Origin: a virus
IMG/VR virus record: IMGVR_UViG_3300012006_000011
Location: 1-41,946 of that record
Length of the DNA: 41,946 bases
Direction: 5' to 3' (one strand)
Below, in pieces: positions 1,786-40,159 of the stretch. Made by a program: the position numbers and the translations under genes. The first letter of the stretch is position 1; each line of letters begins with the position of its first letter. Under the pieces are notes generated by a model. It did no database searches and was not told where the DNA came from. It was given only the letters and a program-made list of their open reading frames with translations.

Positions 1786-1853
1786 TACTTGCTCCTTAAA
1801 AAGACTGTGGAAAACCAGATAATAAACGGAATGACGAACAACAGCAGTTCCAT
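1785..1853 (-). CDS. 22-residue membrane micropeptide
   Basis: The protein has 22 residues (MELLLFVIPFIIWFSTVFLR), a single hydrophobic helix with a basic end (RSK). Both junctions are TAATG overlaps: its ATG shares a base with the ssb stop and its stop shares a base with the next start. Its last codons contain the AAGGAGC ribosome-binding site of the next gene. Precise fitting at both ends argues for real translation. It could act on the membrane or mainly serve to couple translation. Confidence 0.55.
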   Translation of the reverse strand: MELLLFVIPFIIWFSTVFLRSK

Positions 1854-2200
1854 TAGAAGGCTTGTGCTGCCTCTGCCTTGGCAACCAGGACGGCCGCGAA
1901 ACGCAAGCTCACACCGACTTCATCAGCAATGACCTTGTAGGACGTGCGCTTGTTGCCATCTTTGTCTTCCCAGTTTGACTGCTCGACGCGACCGGAAACG
2001 ATTACTCGGGTTCCTTTGGTCACGGAGTTGGCTAGGTTTTCTGCAACAGTACCAAAAGCGGTGCAGTCGAAGAACGACACCTTTTCTTCGCCGTCCTTCG
2101 TCTTGCGACTAACTGCAATCGAGAACGTAGCAAAGGCATTGCCGGTGCTGCCAAACTTGATCTCGGGGTCTCGCGTGAGGTTTCCAACTTCGGTGAACAT
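1853..2200 (-). CDS. ssb: Single-stranded DNA-binding protein
   Basis: The protein has 115 residues and is an OB-fold SSB. It starts MFTEVGNLTRDPEIKFGSTG, followed by the family features FSIAVSRK, a VSFFDCTAFG strand, AENLANSVTKGTRVIVSGRVEQSNW and DKDGNKRTSYKVIADEVG. It binds and protects single-stranded phage DNA in replication and recombination. The usual acidic, flexible C-terminal tail ending in a DDDIPF-like tip is absent; the protein ends soon after the OB fold in an alanine-rich segment. The ATG at 2200 has AAGGA upstream; longer in-frame starts lack one. It is first gene of the left operon, about 100 bases after a consensus promoter. Confidence 0.93.
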   Translation of the reverse strand: MFTEVGNLTRDPEIKFGSTGNAFATFSIAVSRKTKDGEEKVSFFDCTAFGTVAENLANSVTKGTRVIVSGRVEQSNWEDKDGNKRTSYKVIADEVGVSLRFAAVLVAKAEAAQAF

Positions 2201-2305: not shown

Positions 2306-2335
2306 ATTCTAGTCGGCGCGTACTACATGTGTCAA
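2306..2335 (-). promoter_or_regulatory. Sigma-70-type promoter for the ssb operon
   Basis: On the minus strand, TTGACA (2335-2330) is followed after 18 bases by TAGAAT (2311-2306). The -35 box is a perfect consensus match. Long A-runs upstream (2349-2395 region) could act as an UP element. The start of transcription would be near 2299. Confidence 0.8.
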
Positions 2336-2408: not shown

Positions 2409-2437
2409 TTGCATCGAGTGTCTGTTTGTAGTAAGAT
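2409..2437 (+). promoter_or_regulatory. Promoter for the structured RNA upstream of terminase
   Basis: TTGCAT (2409-2414), a 17-base spacer, and TAAGAT (2432-2437) give a reasonable sigma-70 promoter with a start near 2444. It points into the multi-hairpin stretch that ends in a terminator before the terminase gene. There is no open frame of note in that stretch, so its product would be an RNA. Confidence 0.5.
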
Positions 2438-2443
2438 AGAAAC

Positions 2444-2620
2444 CAAAAACAATCGGTAGTAGTAGTTGCCGTTAGGCAACACCGGTTAGTCCCTACGGGA
2501 CTTAGTGTTCATTACTTCGTAACTCACACTAACCGTTACTTTCTCACTTCGTGAAAAAGTTGCCGGTAACCTAGGTTGCTACCTTCACTCTGCGCTTTAC
2601 GAACGCAGAGCGTCTATTTT
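2444..2620 (+). ncRNA. Candidate structured non-coding RNA between ssb and terminase
   Basis: About 175 bases hold a run of compact hairpins: GTTGCC/GGCAAC (2465-2480, loop GTTA); AGTCCC/GGGACT (2488-2502, loop TAC); TTAGTGT/ACACTAA (2502-2532, enclosing TTAC/GTAA with loop TTC); a ten-pair stem 2538-2547/2551-2560 with one mismatch and loop TTC; a weak GGTA/TACC stem (2565-2583); and a terminator stem (2588-2610). An exact alternative pairing, CGGTTAGT (2483-2490) with ACTAACCG (2528-2535), would rearrange the middle. With a promoter before it and a T-run after it, this reads as a complete small RNA gene. It could instead be a packaging or replication site acting as DNA. Confidence 0.55.
2588..2620 (+). 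terminator. Intrinsic terminator before the terminase gene
   Basis: CTCTGCG (2588-2594) pairs perfectly with CGCAGAG (2604-2610) around a nine-base loop, followed by CGTCTATTTTTG. The T-run directly abuts the extended -10 box of the next promoter, so upstream RNA would end exactly where the terminase message begins. Confidence 0.65.
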
Positions 2621-2629
2621 TGCTAGAAT
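2621..2629 (+). promoter_or_regulatory. Extended -10 promoter giving a leaderless terminase mRNA
   Basis: TGCTAGAAT matches the extended -10 form TGnTAnnnT. It ends eight bases before the ATG at 2638, which is where transcription would start, and no ribosome-binding site is present. No good -35 box is seen. Similar TGnTAnnnT boxes occur at 15904 and 29632. Confidence 0.6.
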
Positions 2630-2637
2630 GTCCGTAC

Positions 2638-4530
2638 ATGGCAATCAACGCGATCCAAAAACAAAAGTACTGGAATCTTCGTAATAATGGTTACTCCATG
2701 GACAAGGCCGCAAAACAAGCTGGCTTCTCTCGTAGCACCGCTGCTCGATTAGAGAACACACAAACTGGTGGTCTGGCAAAGCGTGAACTCCATGTGGCTA
2801 AAACCGAGGAGGATTTACCAGGGCCAATCCCTTACGATGAGTTATCCCCCGAGGCCCAGCGAGCTTGGAATGACTTTGGGTATTTCCAGCGCCGATACTT
2901 TGGGCGCATCGCTTACCCGTGGCAGGTCGAGGCCGCAAACCGTATCGCTGCATTTCTTGACACGCCTAATGAAGAATACGTAGTTATCAACGCTCCCCCT
3001 GGTGCTGGTAAAACCGCTTGCTTCGTACACGACATCCCTGCATGGGTAACGGTGAGAAATCGCAACATTCGTGGGATGATCGGCTCCGCGACTATGAGCC
3101 TTGCCAAGCGAAATGTACTACGTCTCCGTAGATCATTGGAACGTGTGCAACCAGAAAAGGCAGACCCAACCTTGCTTCGACGTGGGGATGCGCTAGATGC
3201 TGAATCTACCCTTGCCATGGACTTTGGACGGTTCAAGCCACTAGACCGAGAAATGTGGACTAGTGATGCTTTTATCGTTATGCAGTATGACGAAGCTGGT
3301 GCCATTGCCGAAAAGGAACCTACCTGGTCTGCCTATGGACGAGACACGGCATTCATTGGTGGACGTTACGACTTTGTTATCTGGGACGACCTTGTAGACC
3401 CTCGCAAACTCCGCAGCCTTGAACAGAAAGAGGATTTGCAGGACATGTGGGTCGACGTTGGTGAAACTCGTCTTGAGCCAGGTGGACTGCTTATCTTGCA
3501 GGGTCAGAGAATCTCATCCGATGATCTCTACCGCTATGCCTTGGACATGACCTCTCCACTTGACGAGGAGGATGAGGAGGAGGAGGCAGCCGCCGAAGTA
3601 TTGGACGATGGGCGCCGACTAGACCGAGCAGACAAGAAGTATCACCACATTATCTTCAAAGCGCACTATGACGACATTTGTGTCGGAGAGCATGGCAAGA
3701 ACGCCAAAGCGTACCCTGACGGATGTTTGCTATCCCCTCGCCGTTTGCCATGGCGCAAGATTCAAACCCTTCGAGAAAACCGTGGTGAGCGATTTACCGT
3801 TGTTTATCAGCAGGAGGACATCGACCCTACCGAGGTACTCGTACCTAAACCATGGATCTACGGCGACGATGACTTTCCAGGATGCCTTGATAAAGACCGA
3901 GACCGTCTTGAGATGCCACGTGGGTTGAACGCTACCGACTGTGTTTCCTACGCCACGGCTGACCCATCCCCCACAAACTACTGGTCTATCCAATGGTGGG
4001 TCTACCACCCCGAATCAGAGCAACGATTCCTAATCGACTTGATTCGTCAGAAGATGGACGCACCAGACTTTCTTGACTACCACCCAGACACCCGAGAGTT
4101 TGTCGGTGTAATGAATGATTGGCAGAACATGAGCATTTCGCTCGGGTTCCCAATCTCAACATGGATTGTAGAACAGAACGCTGCACAGCGATTTCTGCTC
4201 CAATACGATCACGTCCGTCGATGGCGAGCGCAGTTCGGTGTAGACATCATCGGCCACGATACCGGACGCAATAAAACCGATAGAGAGTATGGGGTTGAGA
4301 CAATCGCCCCACATTATCGCTTTGGTCGTGTAAGATTACCATGGAGAAATGAAGGCAGAATCATTAGCCTTAAGCTGGTAGATGAGGTAACTCACTACCC
4401 TTATGGTCGTACCGATGACTGTGTTATGGCGCAGTGGTTTGGTGAATGGAACCTGCCTAACATCTACACGCCTACGCATCAGCGCAAGTCGACAGCATGG
4501 CGCCCAAGTTGGTTGAGGACTAGAGTTTGA
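2638..4530 (+). CDS. Terminase large subunit with N-terminal HTH
   Basis: The protein has 630 residues and is the DNA-packaging motor. Walker A is APPGAGKT (119-126) and Walker B VIWDD (247-251). The C-terminal RNase H-like nuclease shows the expected acidic residues: Asp442 (ADPSP), Glu512 (VEQNA) and Asp593/594 (RTDDC). Residues 10-40 form a helix-turn-helix (SMDKAAKQAGFSRSTAARLE), a DNA-binding unit normally supplied by the small subunit. No separate small subunit is seen nearby. An acidic run (LDEEDEEEE, about 308-316) lies between ATPase and nuclease. The ATG at 2638 was chosen because it follows the -10 box directly; a TTG at 2620 lies inside the terminator T-run. It overlaps the portal start by four bases. 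Confidence 0.93.
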   Translation: MAINAIQKQKYWNLRNNGYSMDKAAKQAGFSRSTAARLENTQTGGLAKRELHVAKTEEDLPGPIPYDELSPEAQRAWNDFGYFQRRYFGRIAYPWQVEAANRIAAFLDTPNEEYVVINAPPGAGKTACFVHDIPAWVTVRNRNIRGMIGSATMSLAKRNVLRLRRSLERVQPEKADPTLLRRGDALDAESTLAMDFGRFKPLDREMWTSDAFIVMQYDEAGAIAEKEPTWSAYGRDTAFIGGRYDFVIWDDLVDPRKLRSLEQKEDLQDMWVDVGETRLEPGGLLILQGQRISSDDLYRYALDMTSPLDEEDEEEEAAAEVLDDGRRLDRADKKYHHIIFKAHYDDICVGEHGKNAKAYPDGCLLSPRRLPWRKIQTLRENRGERFTVVYQQEDIDPTEVLVPKPWIYGDDDFPGCLDKDRDRLEMPRGLNATDCVSYATADPSPTNYWSIQWWVYHPESEQRFLIDLIRQKMDAPDFLDYHPDTREFVGVMNDWQNMSISLGFPISTWIVEQNAAQRFLLQYDHVRRWRAQFGVDIIGHDTGRNKTDREYGVETIAPHYRFGRVRLPWRNEGRIISLKLVDEVTHYPYGRTDDCVMAQWFGEWNLPNIYTPTHQRKSTAWRPSWLRTRV

Positions 4531-6565: not shown

Positions 6566-7028
6566 AGGTGGCAAGCGAGGCGGTTCCGATGGAACTGCTT
6601 ACGCTAACCGTACCGATTTAAACGATACCAAAGCACTGCCCATACAGGCCGATACCGGTCAGGGTTATGGTGAGGCTGGCGCTCAACGTGCCGCTCAACG
6701 TGCCATGCCCCTAGAAGGTCAGAATGTTGGCATGCCATCACCGGCTCCAGCCGCTCCTGCCCCTACGGGAATGCCAACTCCTGATGCAACAAGCAGTCCT
6801 TTAAGCGCACCCACACCTACTCTCCATGATGCCCCTGATGACCCTGCTGGTTTTCAAGACTACTTAGATAGTAACGAGGGTGGACGCAATAACGCTCTTG
6901 GTGGGGTAATCCAGCGTGACCCTGAACATCAGCGAATCCTAGATGCACTAGACACTATGGCAAAAGGCCCGTACTCAAGTTCAGTAGTTCGTGACCTTGC
7001 CGACTTTATGCGGTACGCGGTTATTTGA
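6549..7028 (+). CDS. Hypothetical Pro/Ala-rich probable virion protein
   Basis: The protein has 159 residues. A basic start (MPRAGKGGKRGGSDGTAYANRTDLN) is followed by a low-complexity Pro/Ala/Thr stretch (about 54-95) and a short helical C-terminus (residues 105-157). Proteins opening MPRGGKR..GTAY.NRTDL and lying just downstream of the portal recur in actinophages with unknown function, so a head-associated role is plausible. AGAGGA lies eight bases before the ATG. The stop overlaps the next start (TGATG). Confidence 0.75.
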   Translation: MPRAGKGGKRGGSDGTAYANRTDLNDTKALPIQADTGQGYGEAGAQRAAQRAMPLEGQNVGMPSPAPAAPAPTGMPTPDATSSPLSAPTPTLHDAPDDPAGFQDYLDSNEGGRNNALGGVIQRDPEHQRILDALDTMAKGPYSSSVVRDLADFMRYAVI

Positions 7029-10000
7029 TGGCACCAACTCCACCACCTAGCAAAAACCTTAAGAATCCGTTTCCCCAAACAAACCTTAACGATCCATTTA
7101 CTTCAACAAACTTTTACAATCTTGGACAGTCACCTCTCCCCAACGCTAATCATACTGCCGCTACACCAAGCACGACTGCCCCTACACCAAGCACGACTAC
7201 CGCTAGGCATGAACAGTTAGACCAGGATGCCGCAAGGCGCAGTGCTGAAATCGAGGCCCAGCGTCTTGAACAGGCAGCGCCAGAAATCTCACAGGCTTGG
7301 GAAAAAACCGCTTTTGAAAGCTGGCAAAAAGAACATGGAGGTCAAGGTGTTGACAAAACGCCTTGGTGGGTTAGCGTGTTTTCTGGTTTTCAATACCAGC
7401 CTACTTCATGGCAACGAGGTTCTTACATTGACGACCCTGGCGCTGGTTCTGCTAACGCCGCTATTGCTCTTGCTCATGCCCTCGGCAACGACAGCACTTT
7501 AATCCGTCACCCACAATTGCTTCTTGCTGCTGCTCAACATGACATGCAAGCAAGCGACATGAGGTACATGGCTACCATGAGCGACATTGCTTATGCCTAT
7601 CGTTCTTTAATGGGCAACGAAGATGCATGGCAAAATGTTTCAGACAGGTATTTGAAACGCATGGAAAACTCTCCTGGCACACTTCCACCGCTTTACCGCA
7701 AAGCCCTTAGCGTTATGGGTGATGGTTTGCTTGCTATGGGTGATTTAACTCATGATGTAGTAACACAAGGCGAACGAGCTTTGGCTTATGCAACTGGCGA
7801 ATCATCAACAGCGTTAAAACCAGACGAAACGGGACAACAAGATTATGCTTTTACTGGTGACAATCCAGTATTTAATACTGTCCGAGACGCGGTTGCAACA
7901 GCCTGGGCGCCTATCGAATCTATTACTAACATTCAGCACAGCTTTAGATGGCTTCATCACATAGAAGCAACCCAAGGCCCAGCCGCTGCTGCCGAAGCAG
8001 CCGGTGCGATTGTTGCTTACAGCCTTATTCTAAACCAAGCAGTTAAGGGTCTTGGCCTTGGTATGAAAGCAATGGAAACTGCCGGTCTCCGTAAGGCTGC
8101 TGGTGAAATACTTGGCAAGGATGTAGCCAAGTTTTTAGAGGCTCCTGAACTTCGCGTTATGGCCTATGGCGCTGGTGATGAAGCAAAGCACATGGCTTTT
8201 GTTCGACGCGCCCACGAACTCTTGCTTAACCAGCCAGGAACAACTCGGGGATCTATCATCCAACGTTTGGCTAACTTTGGCTCGCGCCATGGGGCAAAAA
8301 ATGTCACCGACCCATTTGAATCAGAACTTATTAAAGCCACCGCCAAGTACGGCAAAAACTTCGACCGTTTTTCCGCTGGAGTGGGTAAGGGTCTAAAGGG
8401 TGCCGCTAATAAAACTAACTCGGTCTTTAACTATTCATGGAACCATTACAAGTTTCCCATCAACGTACAAACAGCCGCCTACCTTGCAGCCACTACTGAT
8501 GGTGCTGGTTTTGCTAAGGGGTGGAAAGATGCATGGGATGTAACCAAAGATGGGGATAACTACCGTGACCCCAATACTAACCGCCCAGTATCGCTAGGTC
8601 GCGACCTTGCTAGTTCATTGAAACTTCGTCAAGATACTTTTACTTTTGATGCAGTTTCTGGTATCTCTGACTTGCTAACCATGTTTAACTTTGACGCCAG
8701 TATCGGAGTTATGAAGGCACTGCCTATTGGTAAATCTTTGCCAGCACTGACTAGCAAGACTGACGTGTATCGCATGTACGAAAGCAACCCTGGCTTTCGC
8801 AAGATGGCCGAATACATTGCTACTCATAGTCGAGAGGCCAGGGAAAAGTTCCGTGAAGCTTTGGCTAAAGAGGAAAAGCAATACTTCGATCAGATTTACC
8901 GTAGGCACATTGCCAGTGGCAAAAAGCCAAGTGAGGCTCGCCAGAAGGTGAATCTGCTCAAGGCCAGCGGTCAAATGAAGCAGATTAGCAAGATGCTAGA
9001 AGGACGTGTCTTTGCTAAGTACGGTGCCGAGGTAAGTTCAGCTTCTCGCATTGTGCGCGTGTTCCCCCAGTTCGCCAACACAATCACCCCAGAAGCCGGC
9101 CATCAGGCTTTGAACTTGGTTCACCTGCTATCACGCGCCGAGACGCCAGAAGAAGTGGTCAATGTTCTTGGTAAGGCAGTTGAAACCCACGCTCTTGCCA
9201 ACCCAAACCGCATGCCATCGTACAGTCGTTTCACAGAATACAAAGACAAGAAATACATAGGAAACTTAGAGGCGCAAAAGGAACTTACTCCAGCACTTCG
9301 TCAAAGCAATAGGTTTGAACCAGGCAATACTCGCGCTGGTGAAAATGTTACCCGTAAGGCTCCTGGCGCACAAGGCAAACTTGCCCGTGGTGCCGTCAGT
9401 CTTAAGCCAACTTATTTTGACGCACTTAAAAACTTTGATAATAAGACAATCAAAGTTGGAGACCCTCGCTCGCTTGAACTAGGCCGCCGAATGTTTTTGG
9501 CTATGGGCATAGATCCCCACGTTGTTGACTGGACAATCAACCGTCTTGCCAACACTGCTAATGCCCGTGAGTGGAAAGTCGTTTTTGAAAACGCTATCCG
9601 TGACACATTCCATGTTCACTCCGAAGCAGTCCTGCAAGACCTAGTTCGAGTGGGTGAGCTTGGCCATACTGACGCTCTTGAACTTCGCAACGTTTTGGAA
9701 AAAGAGTTTGCTCCACTTATGGATGAATACGCAAACTCATGGGGTGGTGGCGGTGCGGCCGGAAACTACTCCGGTGCTGACATTAGCCAGGTAGTCGACC
9801 GCCGTAACCCATTCCAGCGCAGCTCGCAATACCCCACGGCTGGTCTACTGGAATCTCACGAACACCTTATTACGCTCCCTGACTACAAGGCTGTTGACGA
9901 TTACATCCGGTACGTAGCCAAGGGTCTTGCCAGAAACAACAGTAAGAGCCTTAAAAATGTCGTGCTTGACAAGGCTGCCGAAGCAATCGGACGGCCATTT

Positions 10001-13000
10001 GAAGTGCAACGCCTCCAGATTGCCCGTCGACAAAATCTCATCATGGACGAAATCACTACGCTTGATAAAAAGATTGCTGACGATACAGCGGCTGGAATAA
10101 AGCGCAACCCTGATGACTTTGATCATTTAATCACGCTAAAAAAATACTTTAGCAACCTTGACGTACAGGCTAAGTCGTTGCTTGACCAAAAACTTGAAGA
10201 AGTAGAAAAGAAAATCGGCAAATACGAGTTTTTCGACGCTCCTGAAAAGTTTAGAATCAACACGTCCGAAGCATTACATGGCATTCACGACTTTACTCGT
10301 AAGTGGTTAATCGACAAGTATTTCCGTCCCATGGCACTAGCAACTATTGGTTTTGCTACCCGTGTTTCTAGTAGCGAAACCATTGCAACAGTGTTCCGTC
10401 TTGGCGGTAAAGAGTTTGGTAAGGCTTTGCTTTCCCATCATGTTGCTAAGGGTATTGAGGCAGCTCGAAACGATGCTAAGCAAACAGTTGGCGAAGAAAT
10501 CGGTGGTTCGATAGAACACAACTGGATTATGCAAAGGGTTCACGAAACCTTGCAAGCATTGAATGATGTAGAGCATGAGTTTATGAAGGGTGTTGCCCGA
10601 GGCGGTGGCTTAGGCAAAATGGTTGAGCGTATGGCTCAAGATGCCAAAGAAACCGGTGGTGGGTTAAGTGGTCTAAGTTCCCAGCATGTCGACGGAAGAA
10701 TAACCGGTATGGGTACGGAGCTGGTAAAGGGCAACAATAACGGATCATGGCTACCGTCAAGTGACCTTGGCGATGACACAATGAGGGCTTTATCAACCCA
10801 GCTTTACGATGTTGCCAACAGTCCCGTAGGTCGCAAATCAGCGCAAATCCTTTACAAGTTTTTGTCTCCACAACAACACGCCGGTATGTCCCTTGGATGG
10901 CGTCTCAAAGAAGCCGAAGACAACATCACGTCGACCCTAGCGCAACTAATGAAGTCAGACCCCAAGACTTACGACAACTTTATTCGCAAGGCAACCATTA
11001 ACCGAGACACATTAGAGCGAATCGAAAAAGAGGTACTTTCCACTCCTGGCATAACGGACATTAACTCGGTAGCAGCACGTCAGTTAATGACACGAAAGCT
11101 TCGTGATGTGGATTCTATTCGTGAGTGGGCGCATAGCCTGATGACCCACATTCTTTGGCTGTCTCATGGTCGAGGGGCATCTAATGCTCGGTTCACTCTT
11201 GAAAACATGACGGGATCTCGATTCCACCGTCACGTTCTCCAGCGTCTTGCCAATAACCGTTTGCCCAAAACAGCCGAGGGAATCCAAGAGTTGTACCTGC
11301 GTCCAACCTTGGAACAGGCCCGTATCGAAGCTCACCGTGAACTAAACGTCCGAGCGACTGCTGGCGCAAAGTTCCCTGGAAAGATGAAATCTCACCACGA
11401 AGTTTTGTTGCACTCGGACAAGGATTTTAGCGACCTCAAAACGCTAACCCCCGAAGAACACACTCACTTTGGTTTGCCAGCGTACCGTGTTGGCCCACGC
11501 TTTGCTCCTGACTACAAGGATGAAGCGTTGCAGGATCTATCCGACCGAGAAATCTCGGACATGATTCGTGCCAAGTACACGCCAGAAAAATACAAAGCAA
11601 CTACTCGCATTGCTAAGAGTACCATCACCAAGCGTTCAATTGCCGAACAATACAAAAATAGTGCCGGTGAAACTAGCGTTCATTTTCCCAACTACATTCC
11701 TACGCCTACTAACATCACCAAGGGTATTGGTGGGTTCATGGATAACATTGTTGATGCTACGATCGGACGCGCATCTAATGCTATCCACGACCGCTTCTCT
11801 CAACCAATCATTGACACTCTTAGCCGTCAGCCCTTGTACGCCCTAGAGTACAACCGAGCTTTAGACCATCTTGAACAATGGAAGGATCTTGACCCAGCAA
11901 TCGCTCGCAACATTGCTCGCCAGCGCGCAGTCATCAAAGCAATCTCATTTGTTCACAACCCAGCTGACCGCTACGTCCTAGAACAATGGGCGCGGGCCTA
12001 CATGCCATTCTGGTTTGCCAAGAATCAGGCGCTACGTCGAGCCGGACGCTTTGCTATCGAAGACCCAGCCCGTTTTCAAGCGTATGTTCGTGCCATGCTT
12101 GCTATGCAGCATTTCGGCGCCGATACTATGGCCAACCTTGACGAGCAAAACGGTATGTTGCTACCAGGTTCGGCAATGGCTGGACGCTACGTTACCAGTG
12201 TCTTGCATGCTCTGGGCATAGCCCCTGCTGGTGGGGTGCCAATAGGTCTAACCGGATCCCTTACTTCGCTAGCGTCCGTGTTCCCTTGGACTGACCCTAC
12301 CGGTACTGATCCTGGTGGCGCTAGTTCAATCTTTCATTCACTTAAGCCTGACTTTGGCCCAGCGGTGGCATTCCCATTGCGCCAGCTGGCAATGAGGTTT
12401 CCTCACCAAAAGTGGATTCAGCAAACTAACGAAGCATTGCTAGGACACATCGGCGCTAATGCCAGCACATTCCAAATGTTAGTGCCTAACTCCGGTATTC
12501 GAGCCGCTACTTCGCTAGCTGCTTTCAAACTAGGAGGTCGTAACTCGGTAACAATGCAACTCCATGCCATTCAAGTAAGTTTGATGATGGATGCCATAGC
12601 ACAAGAGAATCGTAGGCGTTATTTAGTGGCCGAAAAATACATGCAAAACTATTTTGACACGGCACACCCTGAATACAAAACAGAAGAACCTGTTAGGTAC
12701 GCCAACAGCGTTCGAGAGAATGCCCGTCACCTTGTCGAGACAGGAATCATTGAAAACGGAAAGGTTATCCTCACCCCTATTAAGGAAATGTGGGATAACA
12801 AGTCAATGGAGGAAATGCTCAACGACAGCAAAAACGGAGCATTGGCTCTTTACGCTGCACGATCCGTTCTTTCGTTTGTGTCGCCTCTATCTTTGCAACT
12901 TACGTCTGCTCGACCAGAACTGCAAAAGCTTGTCCGTGAGGCGCAGATTGCTGGCCTTGACAGCGGTAAGTTAGCCAAGTTGTACAACGACAACCTTGAT

Positions 13001-13681
13001 GCTGTTTGGTTTGGGGCGCATAGCACCGCATCGGCAACTGGTTTGCCGCTCCAAGCGACCGTTGACATGTCCCGTATCACCAACGCTAATCCCGATTTGT
13101 TTGACCAATACCCATCCGGCGCGCTGGCATTTGTGCCACACACCAAGGAAGGCGAAAAGTTTGACGCTGCGGAATACCATAACCAACTTAACTCCGGTGT
13201 CCGTGTCAACGAAGATGCGCGCTCGGTCTTTCAAGAAATGCGCCGAAGCGAAGGCAACTGGTACGCCTATGAGTTCCTGCCACAGTTTGTGAAAGACCAG
13301 GGTGGAGATGATCCTGCGTTGCTTTCACGACTTAAGCGAGACTACCGTAGCCAAAACGTCATTTGGGCCAAGAGCCAGGGAGACACTAAGGTTGTCCGTG
13401 TTGCAGCGTTCAAGGAAGTCCGAGAGATGCTCGACCCCAAGATGGGTGTTAAAAATCTTGCCGACCGCACCGGTTTCAAGGAAACGGTATCATTGGTAAA
13501 GCAGATTGTCAATACGTATGACGAGATGCACCAATCTTGGCAGTACGCCGGCCCTGGTTGGAAGCAGTCATTTGAGGATGACTGGAAAACCTACATGACT
13601 GATTTTGTCAAGAAGCACCCTGTTATCACATCAGGTTACATTTCGATTTTTAGAGGATTAAAACTAAGTGACAACGCCTAA
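7028..13681 (+). CDS. Giant internal virion (probable ejection) protein
   Basis: The protein has 2217 residues and is the largest gene, about 16% of the window. The first 75 residues are Pro/Thr/Ser-rich and disordered; the rest is mostly alpha-helical and charged, with hydrophobic patches near residues 317-350 (AAAAEAAGAIVAYSLILN) and around 1735-1755. No enzymatic motif could be recognised. It sits between portal and scaffold rather than among tail genes, and no other tape-measure candidate exists. The best guess is an internal capsid protein injected with the DNA, as in short-tailed phages. A tape-measure protein is the alternative. The ATG at 7028 overlaps the previous stop (TGATG) and is preferred over TTG at 7025. 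Confidence 0.7.
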   Translation: MAPTPPPSKNLKNPFPQTNLNDPFTSTNFYNLGQSPLPNANHTAATPSTTAPTPSTTTARHEQLDQDAARRSAEIEAQRLEQAAPEISQAWEKTAFESWQKEHGGQGVDKTPWWVSVFSGFQYQPTSWQRGSYIDDPGAGSANAAIALAHALGNDSTLIRHPQLLLAAAQHDMQASDMRYMATMSDIAYAYRSLMGNEDAWQNVSDRYLKRMENSPGTLPPLYRKALSVMGDGLLAMGDLTHDVVTQGERALAYATGESSTALKPDETGQQDYAFTGDNPVFNTVRDAVATAWAPIESITNIQHSFRWLHHIEATQGPAAAAEAAGAIVAYSLILNQAVKGLGLGMKAMETAGLRKAAGEILGKDVAKFLEAPELRVMAYGAGDEAKHMAFVRRAHELLLNQPGTTRGSIIQRLANFGSRHGAKNVTDPFESELIKATAKYGKNFDRFSAGVGKGLKGAANKTNSVFNYSWNHYKFPINVQTAAYLAATTDGAGFAKGWKDAWDVTKDGDNYRDPNTNRPVSLGRDLASSLKLRQDTFTFDAVSGISDLLTMFNFDASIGVMKALPIGKSLPALTSKTDVYRMYESNPGFRKMAEYIATHSREAREKFREALAKEEKQYFDQIYRRHIASGKKPSEARQKVNLLKASGQMKQISKMLEGRVFAKYGAEVSSASRIVRVFPQFANTITPEAGHQALNLVHLLSRAETPEEVVNVLGKAVETHALANPNRMPSYSRFTEYKDKKYIGNLEAQKELTPALRQSNRFEPGNTRAGENVTRKAPGAQGKLARGAVSLKPTYFDALKNFDNKTIKVGDPRSLELGRRMFLAMGIDPHVVDWTINRLANTANAREWKVVFENAIRDTFHVHSEAVLQDLVRVGELGHTDALELRNVLEKEFAPLMDEYANSWGGGGAAGNYSGADISQVVDRRNPFQRSSQYPTAGLLESHEHLITLPDYKAVDDYIRYVAKGLARNNSKSLKNVVLDKAAEAIGRPFEVQRLQIARRQNLIMDEITTLDKKIADDTAAGIKRNPDDFDHLITLKKYFSNLDVQAKSLLDQKLEEVEKKIGKYEFFDAPEKFRINTSEALHGIHDFTRKWLIDKYFRPMALATIGFATRVSSSETIATVFRLGGKEFGKALLSHHVAKGIEAARNDAKQTVGEEIGGSIEHNWIMQRVHETLQALNDVEHEFMKGVARGGGLGKMVERMAQDAKETGGGLSGLSSQHVDGRITGMGTELVKGNNNGSWLPSSDLGDDTMRALSTQLYDVANSPVGRKSAQILYKFLSPQQHAGMSLGWRLKEAEDNITSTLAQLMKSDPKTYDNFIRKATINRDTLERIEKEVLSTPGITDINSVAARQLMTRKLRDVDSIREWAHSLMTHILWLSHGRGASNARFTLENMTGSRFHRHVLQRLANNRLPKTAEGIQELYLRPTLEQARIEAHRELNVRATAGAKFPGKMKSHHEVLLHSDKDFSDLKTLTPEEHTHFGLPAYRVGPRFAPDYKDEALQDLSDREISDMIRAKYTPEKYKATTRIAKSTITKRSIAEQYKNSAGETSVHFPNYIPTPTNITKGIGGFMDNIVDATIGRASNAIHDRFSQPIIDTLSRQPLYALEYNRALDHLEQWKDLDPAIARNIARQRAVIKAISFVHNPADRYVLEQWARAYMPFWFAKNQALRRAGRFAIEDPARFQAYVRAMLAMQHFGADTMANLDEQNGMLLPGSAMAGRYVTSVLHALGIAPAGGVPIGLTGSLTSLASVFPWTDPTGTDPGGASSIFHSLKPDFGPAVAFPLRQLAMRFPHQKWIQQTNEALLGHIGANASTFQMLVPNSGIRAATSLAAFKLGGRNSVTMQLHAIQVSLMMDAIAQENRRRYLVAEKYMQNYFDTAHPEYKTEEPVRYANSVRENARHLVETGIIENGKVILTPIKEMWDNKSMEEMLNDSKNGALALYAARSVLSFVSPLSLQLTSARPELQKLVREAQIAGLDSGKLAKLYNDNLDAVWFGAHSTASATGLPLQATVDMSRITNANPDLFDQYPSGALAFVPHTKEGEKFDAAEYHNQLNSGVRVNEDARSVFQEMRRSEGNWYAYEFLPQFVKDQGGDDPALLSRLKRDYRSQNVIWAKSQGDTKVVRVAAFKEVREMLDPKMGVKNLADRTGFKETVSLVKQIVNTYDEMHQSWQYAGPGWKQSFEDDWKTYMTDFVKKHPVITSGYISIFRGLKLSDNA

Positions 13682-16583: not shown

Positions 16584-17663
16584 GTGGCAATCACTCAAGT
16601 TTCCAGTCTCGACTTTTCACAGAAGGCTTACGACCGGCTTGCATACTTCGCACTCCGTCCCGAGCTTTACTTTGACCAAGCCGCAGATGTCATGCCGACC
16701 GCCCAGTCAATGCCTGGTTCGTCGGTTCAGTTCACCATCGTTAACGACCTTCCCGTCGCTTCCGCTGCCATCTCCGAAGTCAGCGACATTTCCGCTGTTG
16801 CACTTAGCGACAGCACTGTCACGGTTTCGTTGGCTGAATACGGTAACGCCGTACTCACAACCGCTAAGCTCCGTGGAACCTCATTCGTTGAAATCGACCC
16901 AGTTGTCGCCAACGTAATCGGTTACAACGCTGGTCTGTCCCTCGACAGCATCGCCCGTAACGTCCTCCGTGACTTCGTAATGACCAACGGTACCTCCTAC
17001 TGGAACAACGCTGGCGCCGGTACGCTTTCCGCTACCGTCACCGGTACTCCTACGGGTGGCACCAACGGTGGATCCAACGTCTCCACGACCTTCACCGGTA
17101 CGGGTGCTACGGCCAAGGGTTCCGACTTTGCTAAGCAGCGCGCTGCGCTTCGCTCAAGCAACGTTGCTGCCTTCGGTGGTTTCTACGTTGCCTACGTCCA
17201 CCCCGACGTAGTATTCGACATCCAGCAGGACACCGGAGCCGCCGGATGGCGCCTCCCCCACGTCTACTCGCAGCCAGGTGAAATCTGGTCGGGTGAAATG
17301 GGTGCATTCGAAGGTTTCCGCTTCATCGAAACCCCACGTGCGCCTATCTACGCTGACAGTGCTATCACGCCTCCTGTCGACCAGCAGAACTCGGGTCTCT
17401 CGGGTAACCCTGCCGGTGACGTGTACTTGTCAATCTGCATGGGTCGTCAGGGTCTTGCTAAGGCTCACTCGATTGTCGACGGCAATGGTGCTGTTCCTCA
17501 CATCGTTCCTGGTCCTATCACTGACTACCTCCGTCGCTTCGTACCCCTTGGTTGGTACTGGCTGGGTGGTTACAGTGGTTTCCGTAAGTCATCGGTTCGC
17601 GCCGTAGCCAGCACCTCATCGCTGACCTACACCGACCCAACTTTCGCACCAGCGAACCAGTAG
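16584..17663 (+). CDS. Major capsid protein
   Basis: The protein has 359 residues, immediately after the scaffold. The segment SLAEYGNAVLTTAKLRGTSF followed by a helix (NAGLSLDSIARNVLRDFVM) is like the HK97-fold capsid proteins of the N4 gp56 type. A Gly/Thr-rich insertion (about 150-180) is likely a surface loop. The start is GTG at 16584 with AGAAAGAGAA upstream; no nearby ATG fits. Codon choice is strongly biased to C-ending codons compared with the flanking genes, as expected for the most abundant product. Confidence 0.88.
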   Translation: MAITQVSSLDFSQKAYDRLAYFALRPELYFDQAADVMPTAQSMPGSSVQFTIVNDLPVASAAISEVSDISAVALSDSTVTVSLAEYGNAVLTTAKLRGTSFVEIDPVVANVIGYNAGLSLDSIARNVLRDFVMTNGTSYWNNAGAGTLSATVTGTPTGGTNGGSNVSTTFTGTGATAKGSDFAKQRAALRSSNVAAFGGFYVAYVHPDVVFDIQQDTGAAGWRLPHVYSQPGEIWSGEMGAFEGFRFIETPRAPIYADSAITPPVDQQNSGLSGNPAGDVYLSICMGRQGLAKAHSIVDGNGAVPHIVPGPITDYLRRFVPLGWYWLGGYSGFRKSSVRAVASTSSLTYTDPTFAPANQ

Positions 17664-31495: not shown

Positions 31496-31683
31496 TGACT
31501 ACCAGTGAGGCGCGTAAGCGTCGAGAAGACCTTGCCGAGAGCATGCGAGACCAGCACCGATGGGAGTTACACCTTTCATCGGTAGGCAGAGACCGTGTTA
31601 TCTGCAACCACTGCGGCAAAGTATTTATGCCAGGCAACGAAGTAATCCCCTACACAGGGCCAATACCAGGAAAGTTCGCATGA
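31495..31683 (+). CDS. Small zinc-finger protein
   Basis: The protein has 62 residues. A charged N-terminal helix (SEARKRREDLAESMRDQHRWE) precedes one CNHC knuckle (37-40) in the sequence VICNHCGKVFMPGNE. With only one Cys pair it would need histidines or a partner to hold zinc. TAATG overlap with erf and ATGA with the next gene. Function unknown. Confidence 0.7.
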   Translation: MTTSEARKRREDLAESMRDQHRWELHLSSVGRDRVICNHCGKVFMPGNEVIPYTGPIPGKFA

Positions 31684-32192
31684 CAACCATTATCGGATAC
31701 ACAAACGGAGTTGATCTCTACATAGCTGGAGACAAGTCAGCATCAGATGGACAGACCATGGTGGTAACAGACACACCCAAGGTCTACCGAATCGGTAGTT
31801 CAGTCGCTATCGGTTTCGCCGGTTCGTGGCGAGGAGGGGAACTAGGCGTCCAAGCTCTAAAGGAACTTGACGTGGACAGCCCCGATTGCAACATCCACGA
31901 CATGACGGCAGCGATTGCAGAATCATGGCGTGAGGCAGATTTCAAGAACGAGGACACCACGTTCCTTATCGGGTACTCCGGTCAATGGTTCGAGATTCAG
32001 TCTGACCTTGGACACATCGCCATCTTTGGTGACTTTCATGCCATCGGCTCCGGCGCCCAGTTTGCTCTTGGCTCCCTCTACTCCAGCGAGGACTACGGCC
32101 CATCACGTCTACGTATCAAAGTTGCCTTTGAAGCGGCCGCCAAGTGGACAGAATGCACCGCAGACCATACGTTTGTGATGGTGGAGGCATAA
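31680..32192 (+). CDS. HslV/proteasome-beta-like Ntn hydrolase
   Basis: The protein has 170 residues. After removal of Met the sequence begins TTIIGYTNGVDLYIAGDKSA, aligning without gaps to the start of HslV: Thr1 nucleophile, Asp17 and Lys33 (TPKVYR) all fall at the HslV positions. Further HslV-like segments are AIGFAGSWRGG and HAIGSGAQFALG. It is therefore likely an N-terminal-threonine hydrolase, possibly a protease forming rings. No HslU-type ATPase is in the window. The ATG at 31680 overlaps the upstream stop (ATGA), and only this start exposes Thr at position 1. Confidence 0.82.
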   Translation: MTTIIGYTNGVDLYIAGDKSASDGQTMVVTDTPKVYRIGSSVAIGFAGSWRGGELGVQALKELDVDSPDCNIHDMTAAIAESWREADFKNEDTTFLIGYSGQWFEIQSDLGHIAIFGDFHAIGSGAQFALGSLYSSEDYGPSRLRIKVAFEAAAKWTECTADHTFVMVEA

Positions 32193-39511: not shown

Positions 39512-40159
39512 CTAAGCCTTTCTTACTGGCATTTGGAGGTAGTCCGTCTGCACTCGACCGGCGATTTCTCCGGCGATCATGAATGCTCGGCTTTTGTCGC
39601 TGATGTAGAGGGTAGCGGTTGCTCCTGCTCTTTTGTCGCTCCATGGCGCGAGCTTGGCAGCGCTTACCAGGTAGTGGATGTTAAAGCTAAATGCTTCGTG
39701 CGTTTCCATGACTTGTCCCCATGTGGCTGTTTTGAGTGGTTGCATAAGTTGCCGCCAGTCTGGGTACCGCTCATGGTCTGCCGTTGGGTAGGTCGTGGTG
39801 CGTCCGTCTGCGGTGGTGAATGTGATTGTGTCGCTGGTCAGTTCGGCGCGTACCGTTCGGGCTTTGGCGTCTTTGATCCATTTGGCGCTAGCGGTTAGGT
39901 CTTTGGCAGCCATGGCAAACGTCGAAGGCGCGAAGGCTTCGGCGTCTGTGGTGGCGGTAGTCATGTGGGCTAGGCGGTAACTGTCGGTGGCTACTCCTTC
40001 CAGCTGTTCGCCATTATGCCAGATTAGAACTGCGTTTATGATGGGTCGGCTTTCGTCATTGCTTGCAGCGTGTGCGAGCGTGGCGAGATCCTGCCAGGTT
40101 TGGGCGTCTAACCATCCGGTGATGATTTTCGGCGTGGTTGGGTTGGTTTCGGTTTGCAT
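39512..40159 (-). CDS. DnaN-like DNA sliding clamp, two-domain length
   Basis: The protein has 215 residues. The beta-clamp signature ATDSYRLA (57-64), then YPDWRQLM (132-139, matching the FPDY..L.P segment) and a C-terminal DYLQMPVR like the DnaN end are present in the right order. Bacterial clamps have about 370 residues in three domains; this one has room for only two, corresponding to domains II and III. Clamps tether polymerase to DNA. A two-domain clamp would need three subunits to close a ring, as in T4 gp45 or PCNA. Its leader holds a TTTGG repeat (40176-40194). Confidence 0.8.
   Translation of the reverse strand: MQTETNPTTPKIITGWLDAQTWQDLATLAHAASNDESRPIINAVLIWHNGEQLEGVATDSYRLAHMTTATTDAEAFAPSTFAMAAKDLTASAKWIKDAKARTVRAELTSDTITFTTADGRTTTYPTADHERYPDWRQLMQPLKTATWGQVMETHEAFSFNIHYLVSAAKLAPWSDKRAGATATLYISDKSRAFMIAGEIAGRVQTDYLQMPVRKA

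Follow-up and report, generated by a model that had tools for sequence, protein, structure and literature searches.

The stretch analysed here, hereafter the window, comprises 41,946 nt (42 kb) of the uncultivated virus record IMGVR_UViG_3300012006_000011, and the whole finding is contained in the 437 bases between the SSB gene and the terminase gene. The SSB gene (1853–2200, minus strand; PF00436, E 4e-29) is oriented divergently and is preceded by the likewise divergent promoter TTGACA-18-TAGAAT (2306–2335, minus strand), which agrees with the consensus at 11 of 12 positions and has similar sites in the related contigs L001 and L004. The terminase large subunit gene (2638–4530, plus strand; phrog_38, E 6e-44) codes for a protein of 630 aa and is the first gene of a rightward block, with the genes downstream of its start sharing its direction. 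Between the SSB promoter and the promoter P1 described below, a DnaA-box-like TTTTCCACA is located at 2361–2369 within a T-rich tract; the GC skew was uninformative as to an origin. Elsewhere in the window there are a CDS coding for a 2218-aa protein without Pfam or PHROG match (7025–13681) and, at 31560–32192, a gene for a proteasome/HslV-like peptidase, followed at 39512–40159 by one resembling the DNA polymerase III beta clamp.

The site designated P1 (TTGCAT-17-TAAGAT, 2409–2437, plus strand), which the initial annotation had reported as a sigma-70-like promoter, is indeed present and is the sole such match in the 42-kb window; it is weak, agreeing with the consensus at 7 of 12 positions, and was left unlisted by the promoter scan. 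It aligns with TTGACA-17-TAAGAT or TAGGCT in L001, L002 and L004, which have an equal 17-base spacer and stronger hexamers (10/12 consensus positions in L001). The first bases after P1, CAAAAACAA, are identical in the window and in these three contigs, and the conserved start of the putative transcribed region is AACCAAAAACAA at 2441–2452 (plus strand). As had been claimed, no plausible reading frame is found over 2440–2617; the stretch is non-coding.

Five hairpins had been described downstream of P1, three of them with the loops TAC, TTC and TTC, and all of them were found in place. In the predicted plus-strand fold, an outer stem formed by GGTAGTA (2455–2461) and TGCTACC (2577–2583) encloses the hairpin GTTGCC(GTTA)GGCAAC (2465–2480), which has the GNNA-type loop GTTA, and a four-way junction between GGTT (2484) and AACC (2571), with no unpaired bases at the junction itself. 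The junction closes three arms carrying the three-base loops, namely AGTCCC(TAC)GGGACT (2488–2502), TTAC(TTC)GTAA (2512–2522, inside TAGTGT..ACACTA) and TCAC(TTC)GTGA (2544–2554, inside a longer stem); read on the minus strand, the loops are GTA, GAA and GAA. The region ends with a terminator-like hairpin, CTCTGCG/CGCAGAG (2588–2621, plus strand; stem 2588–2610). The seven-pair stem is as perfect as originally described, but the five-T run (2617–2621) begins 6 nt later, with CGTCTA in between, and no intrinsic terminator was found on the plus strand of the scanned stretch in L001, L004 or L010. An alternative stem at 2592–2613 cuts the gap to the T-run to 3 nt.

Folded as RNA, the plus strand reaches −57 kcal/mol (z −3.7 to −5.0) and the minus strand −73 kcal/mol (z −6.6 to −6.9), and folding as DNA gives z-scores of −4.5 and −5.5. 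When 175-nt segments were sampled at 120 positions on both strands (240 segments of the 42 kb), the two segments of this locus ranked first and second (z −7.5 for the minus and −4.0 for the plus strand). The folding is far beyond chance, and this is the most structured segment among those sampled in the 42 kb. They are followed by plus-strand segments with z −3.9 and −3.8, which lie within the major capsid gene at 16801–17325.

Relatives were sought in viral contigs and in one scan of genome contigs, which resulted in three further lineages of the same uncultivated clade, L001/L002, L004 and L010/L011, with terminase identities to the window of 83%, 84% and 76%, respectively; the sequence of L009 is cut off. 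Scanning the viral contigs for terminase, portal and SSB did not yield a fifth lineage, nor did the genome contigs, and a DNA-pattern scan for the start of the leader, as the stretch following the promoter is called here, retrieved the three known carriers L001, L002 and L004 among other hits. All three lineages have the same layout, consisting of the minus-strand SSB gene, a promoter, 130–220 nt of hairpin-bearing non-coding DNA and the terminase gene. Each of the four lineages of the clade has a promoter here, which is sequence-homologous in three of them; L010 possesses TTGACA-18-TAAGCT and two hairpins of its own. The inspected terminase relatives at about 50–67% identity mostly have coding genes directly before the terminase, so the element appears to be restricted to the near clade.

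The first stem, RGTAG..CTACY, recurs in 4/4 lineages (rough joint shuffle chance ~1e-3), with a span varying from 29 to ~125 nt, which indicates that the lineages do not share one rigid fold. A 40-nt hairpin follows directly on the promoter in L001 and L004, and the two versions show only three differences: an A-U pair of the outer stem is replaced by G-C, one base of the loop is changed, and the loop is closed by an additional C-G pair (GAA to GTA); the 13 pairs of this hairpin are all formed where both bases are present. These pair-preserving changes are suggestive of a conserved structure. Compensating changes in relatives, which the initial annotation had named as potential support for an RNA, are thus represented by one pair changed on both sides, but this is a single event between two distinct sequences, and shuffles, of which 252 of 500 reach its level, do not separate it from chance. 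As a whole, the leaders of the relatives show no folding beyond that of shuffles (plus-strand z between about 0 and −1), so the heavy folding is a trait of the window's version.

Between the leader and the terminase gene, L001 (2891–3031), L002 and L004 (2903–3044) have a small ORF (about 45 codons), whose ATG is preceded at a distance of six bases by a −10-like TACAAT. In L001 it reads MDKQEAQLIF..DYDL and ends like a frame in L009; it is missing in the window and is perhaps left as a remnant in L010. In addition, about 420 bases before the terminase gene of L001 and L002, between the SSB promoter and P1, there is an inverted repeat, TTAGC(ATG)GCTAA, a possible operator which is partly kept in L004.

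The Rfam search of 2200–2700 gave no hit at gathering score, with just a chance gltS match (E 2.5), in agreement with the original statement that it matches no RNA family that could be named; no tRNA or tmRNA was found, and the region had no match among annotated phages and plasmids. The comparison with packaging RNAs that had been proposed is not supported. A phi29-type pRNA is similar in length and likewise adjoins the packaging ATPase, but the window lacks an Rfam pRNA hit, and its terminase is an ordinary 630-aa large subunit of phrog_38, not a gp16-type ATPase.

Judging by the folding and by the promoter and hairpin-rich stretch kept in all four lineages, the non-coding sequence probably represents a genuine structured RNA, or else a DNA site that folds. 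The best supported explanation, which we adopt tentatively, is that P1 drives a structured leader RNA probably acting in cis on late transcription, with transcription, strand, cis action and read-through being inferred. Rightward transcription from P1 would produce a structured non-coding leader of about 175 nt heading the terminase (late) operon; nascent hairpins would form right behind the promoter and act in cis, setting the amount of transcription that passes into the terminase gene, and the weak terminator at 2588–2621 may be the gate in this phage. Consistent with this are the top-ranked folding among the 240 segments, the homologous promoter with the CAAAAACAA start in three lineages and the promoter-plus-hairpins arrangement in L010/L011 as well, the pair-preserving differences between L001 and L004, the recurrent first stem, and the shared direction of the terminase and the next genes. 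On the other hand, the minus strand of the window folds better, the relatives have no terminator, so the gate is not conserved, and the small ORF separates the leader from the terminase in L001, L002 and L004; the single compensatory pair, the shuffle-like folding of the relatives' leaders and the mostly coding sequence at this place in the ~50–67% relatives also argue against it. No antiterminator (Q-like) gene was recognised among the proteins scanned, which represent part of the ORFs.

The order of promoter, folded body and terminator-like hairpin could also belong to a stand-alone plus-strand small RNA gene, as originally suggested, whose product would leave the polymerase at the terminator and act in trans. 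The terminase may then have a promoter of its own: its start in the window lacks a Shine-Dalgarno sequence and is preceded, 8 nt before the ATG, by an extended −10 element, TGCTAGAAT (2621–2629, plus strand), a possible second terminase promoter. Since TACAAT also precedes the small ORF in the relatives, and L004, L009 and L011 have −10-like hexamers (TATAAT/TACAAT) close to gene starts, the terminase may be transcribed separately, from its own leaderless promoter. Of the gene described earlier, the promoter and the structured body stand, supported by the pair-keeping changes between relatives, but its completeness is not established because the terminator is imperfect and not found in the relatives and P1 is weak in the window, though strong in its homologues. 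The observations are explained equally well by a structured leader of the terminase transcript, and a stand-alone, trans-acting RNA is considered unlikely. It is very unlikely that the functional molecule is a structured minus-strand RNA, for instance a long leader of the SSB transcript, despite the lower energy of that strand. The conserved promoter argues for the plus strand, on which the RNA had been placed from the start, but in the window the minus strand folds better, and it is not clear that the folded strand is the plus one: when read on the minus strand, most of the imperfect plus-strand pairs (A-C) turn into G-U and a 2x2 internal loop into tandem GA, giving a tally of about 4 to 1 for minus which is not significant alone. 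Against a minus-strand RNA, however, the outer stem carries one G-U favouring the plus strand, the GNA loop of the first hairpin is found on the plus strand in L001, L004 and L010, the strong SSB promoter (2335–2306) lies downstream of the region, and near 2644 there is merely a weak promoter-like site on the minus strand (9/12).

The hairpin loops themselves point to the strongest rival to the leader RNA, namely a function of the folded DNA, in which the cluster of unusually stable C(GNA)G mini-hairpins, extruded or single-stranded, would act beside SSB and terminase as an origin of replication or priming, as a promoter of the hairpin kind or as a site recognised in packaging; we regard it as rather unlikely. 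The four leaders contain 8 C(GNA)G hairpins with a stem of at least 4, whereas the density in each locus predicts ~0.2, a significance somewhat overstated since the hairpins were counted after the pattern had been noticed. Three are in the window, on the minus strand at 2488–2554, and these are all the minus-strand C(GNA)G hairpins in its 42 kb; L001 has one and L004 and L010 have two each. The hairpins lie on different strands in different lineages, as would be expected of DNA rather than of a single RNA, and GNA/GNNA loops are known to form extraordinarily stable DNA mini-hairpins (PMC4686876). There is also a precedent in the promoters of the N4 virion RNA polymerase, DNA hairpins that host SSB activates and whose 3-base loop has a sheared G:A pair (PMC4496689). 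The strong DNA fold and the nearby T-rich tract with its DnaA-box-like TTTTCCACA agree with a DNA site as well, but such a site has no need of the conserved promoter and start directly upstream, no iterons were noted, and the 2218-aa protein shows neither a Pfam or PHROG match nor the catalytic motifs or family match of an N4-like virion RNA polymerase in a scan covering part of the ORFs. It is quite unlikely, in our estimate, that the variable number of C(GNA)G mini-hairpins between promoter and terminase constitutes a switch based on shape, made of DNA or of DNA and RNA together and controlling late transcription, replication or packaging, in which the loop type and the outer stem would be kept while sequence, number and strand change. 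As to an intergenic spacer with repeated small palindromes, either protein-binding sites or chance, and no folded function, the region is short, its relatives are few and their whole leaders fold no better than shuffles, with little formal covariation support; nevertheless, the z-scores for folding in the window, the recurrence of one loop type in all four lineages and the pair-preserving differences make this explanation highly doubtful.

The element resembles several known systems in part. In the late leader of phage lambda (pR′, 6S RNA, tR′), a promoter, a non-coding RNA shorter than 200 nt and a terminator stand directly before the late genes, and the window resembles it in its promoter, short putative leader and terminator-like hairpin before the terminase. 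It differs in having no Q-like gene recognised among the proteins scanned and in its imperfect terminator, absent in the relatives; moreover, the lambda leader is not heavily folded. HK022 put is an antiterminator RNA, the nascent form of which lets RNA polymerase disregard terminators. The put sites are about 70 nt long with two stem-loops, putL being located just downstream of PL (PMC9378689). The layout is alike in that the hairpins start within ~20 nt of the start point of the promoter; however, there is a four-way junction in the window and one long hairpin in L001/L004, and the element precedes the terminase rather than early genes. With N4 promoters, in which SSB is involved, the window shares short-stemmed hairpins with three-base loops of the C(GNA)G type; however, no virion RNA polymerase was recognised among the ORFs scanned, and in the window the hairpins are clustered downstream of a sigma-70-type promoter. 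If confirmed, the element would be a new, undescribed structured leader in a phage lineage known from metagenomes alone, and would test the use of stable GNA-loop mini-hairpins as signals beyond N4-like and single-stranded systems.

Two contigs with distant terminases (38–40% identity), L122 and L131, have a stretch without an evident gene about 400 bases before the terminase gene; this stretch gave no Rfam match, and the two contigs have in common a motif around TTTTAGCCGACACC.
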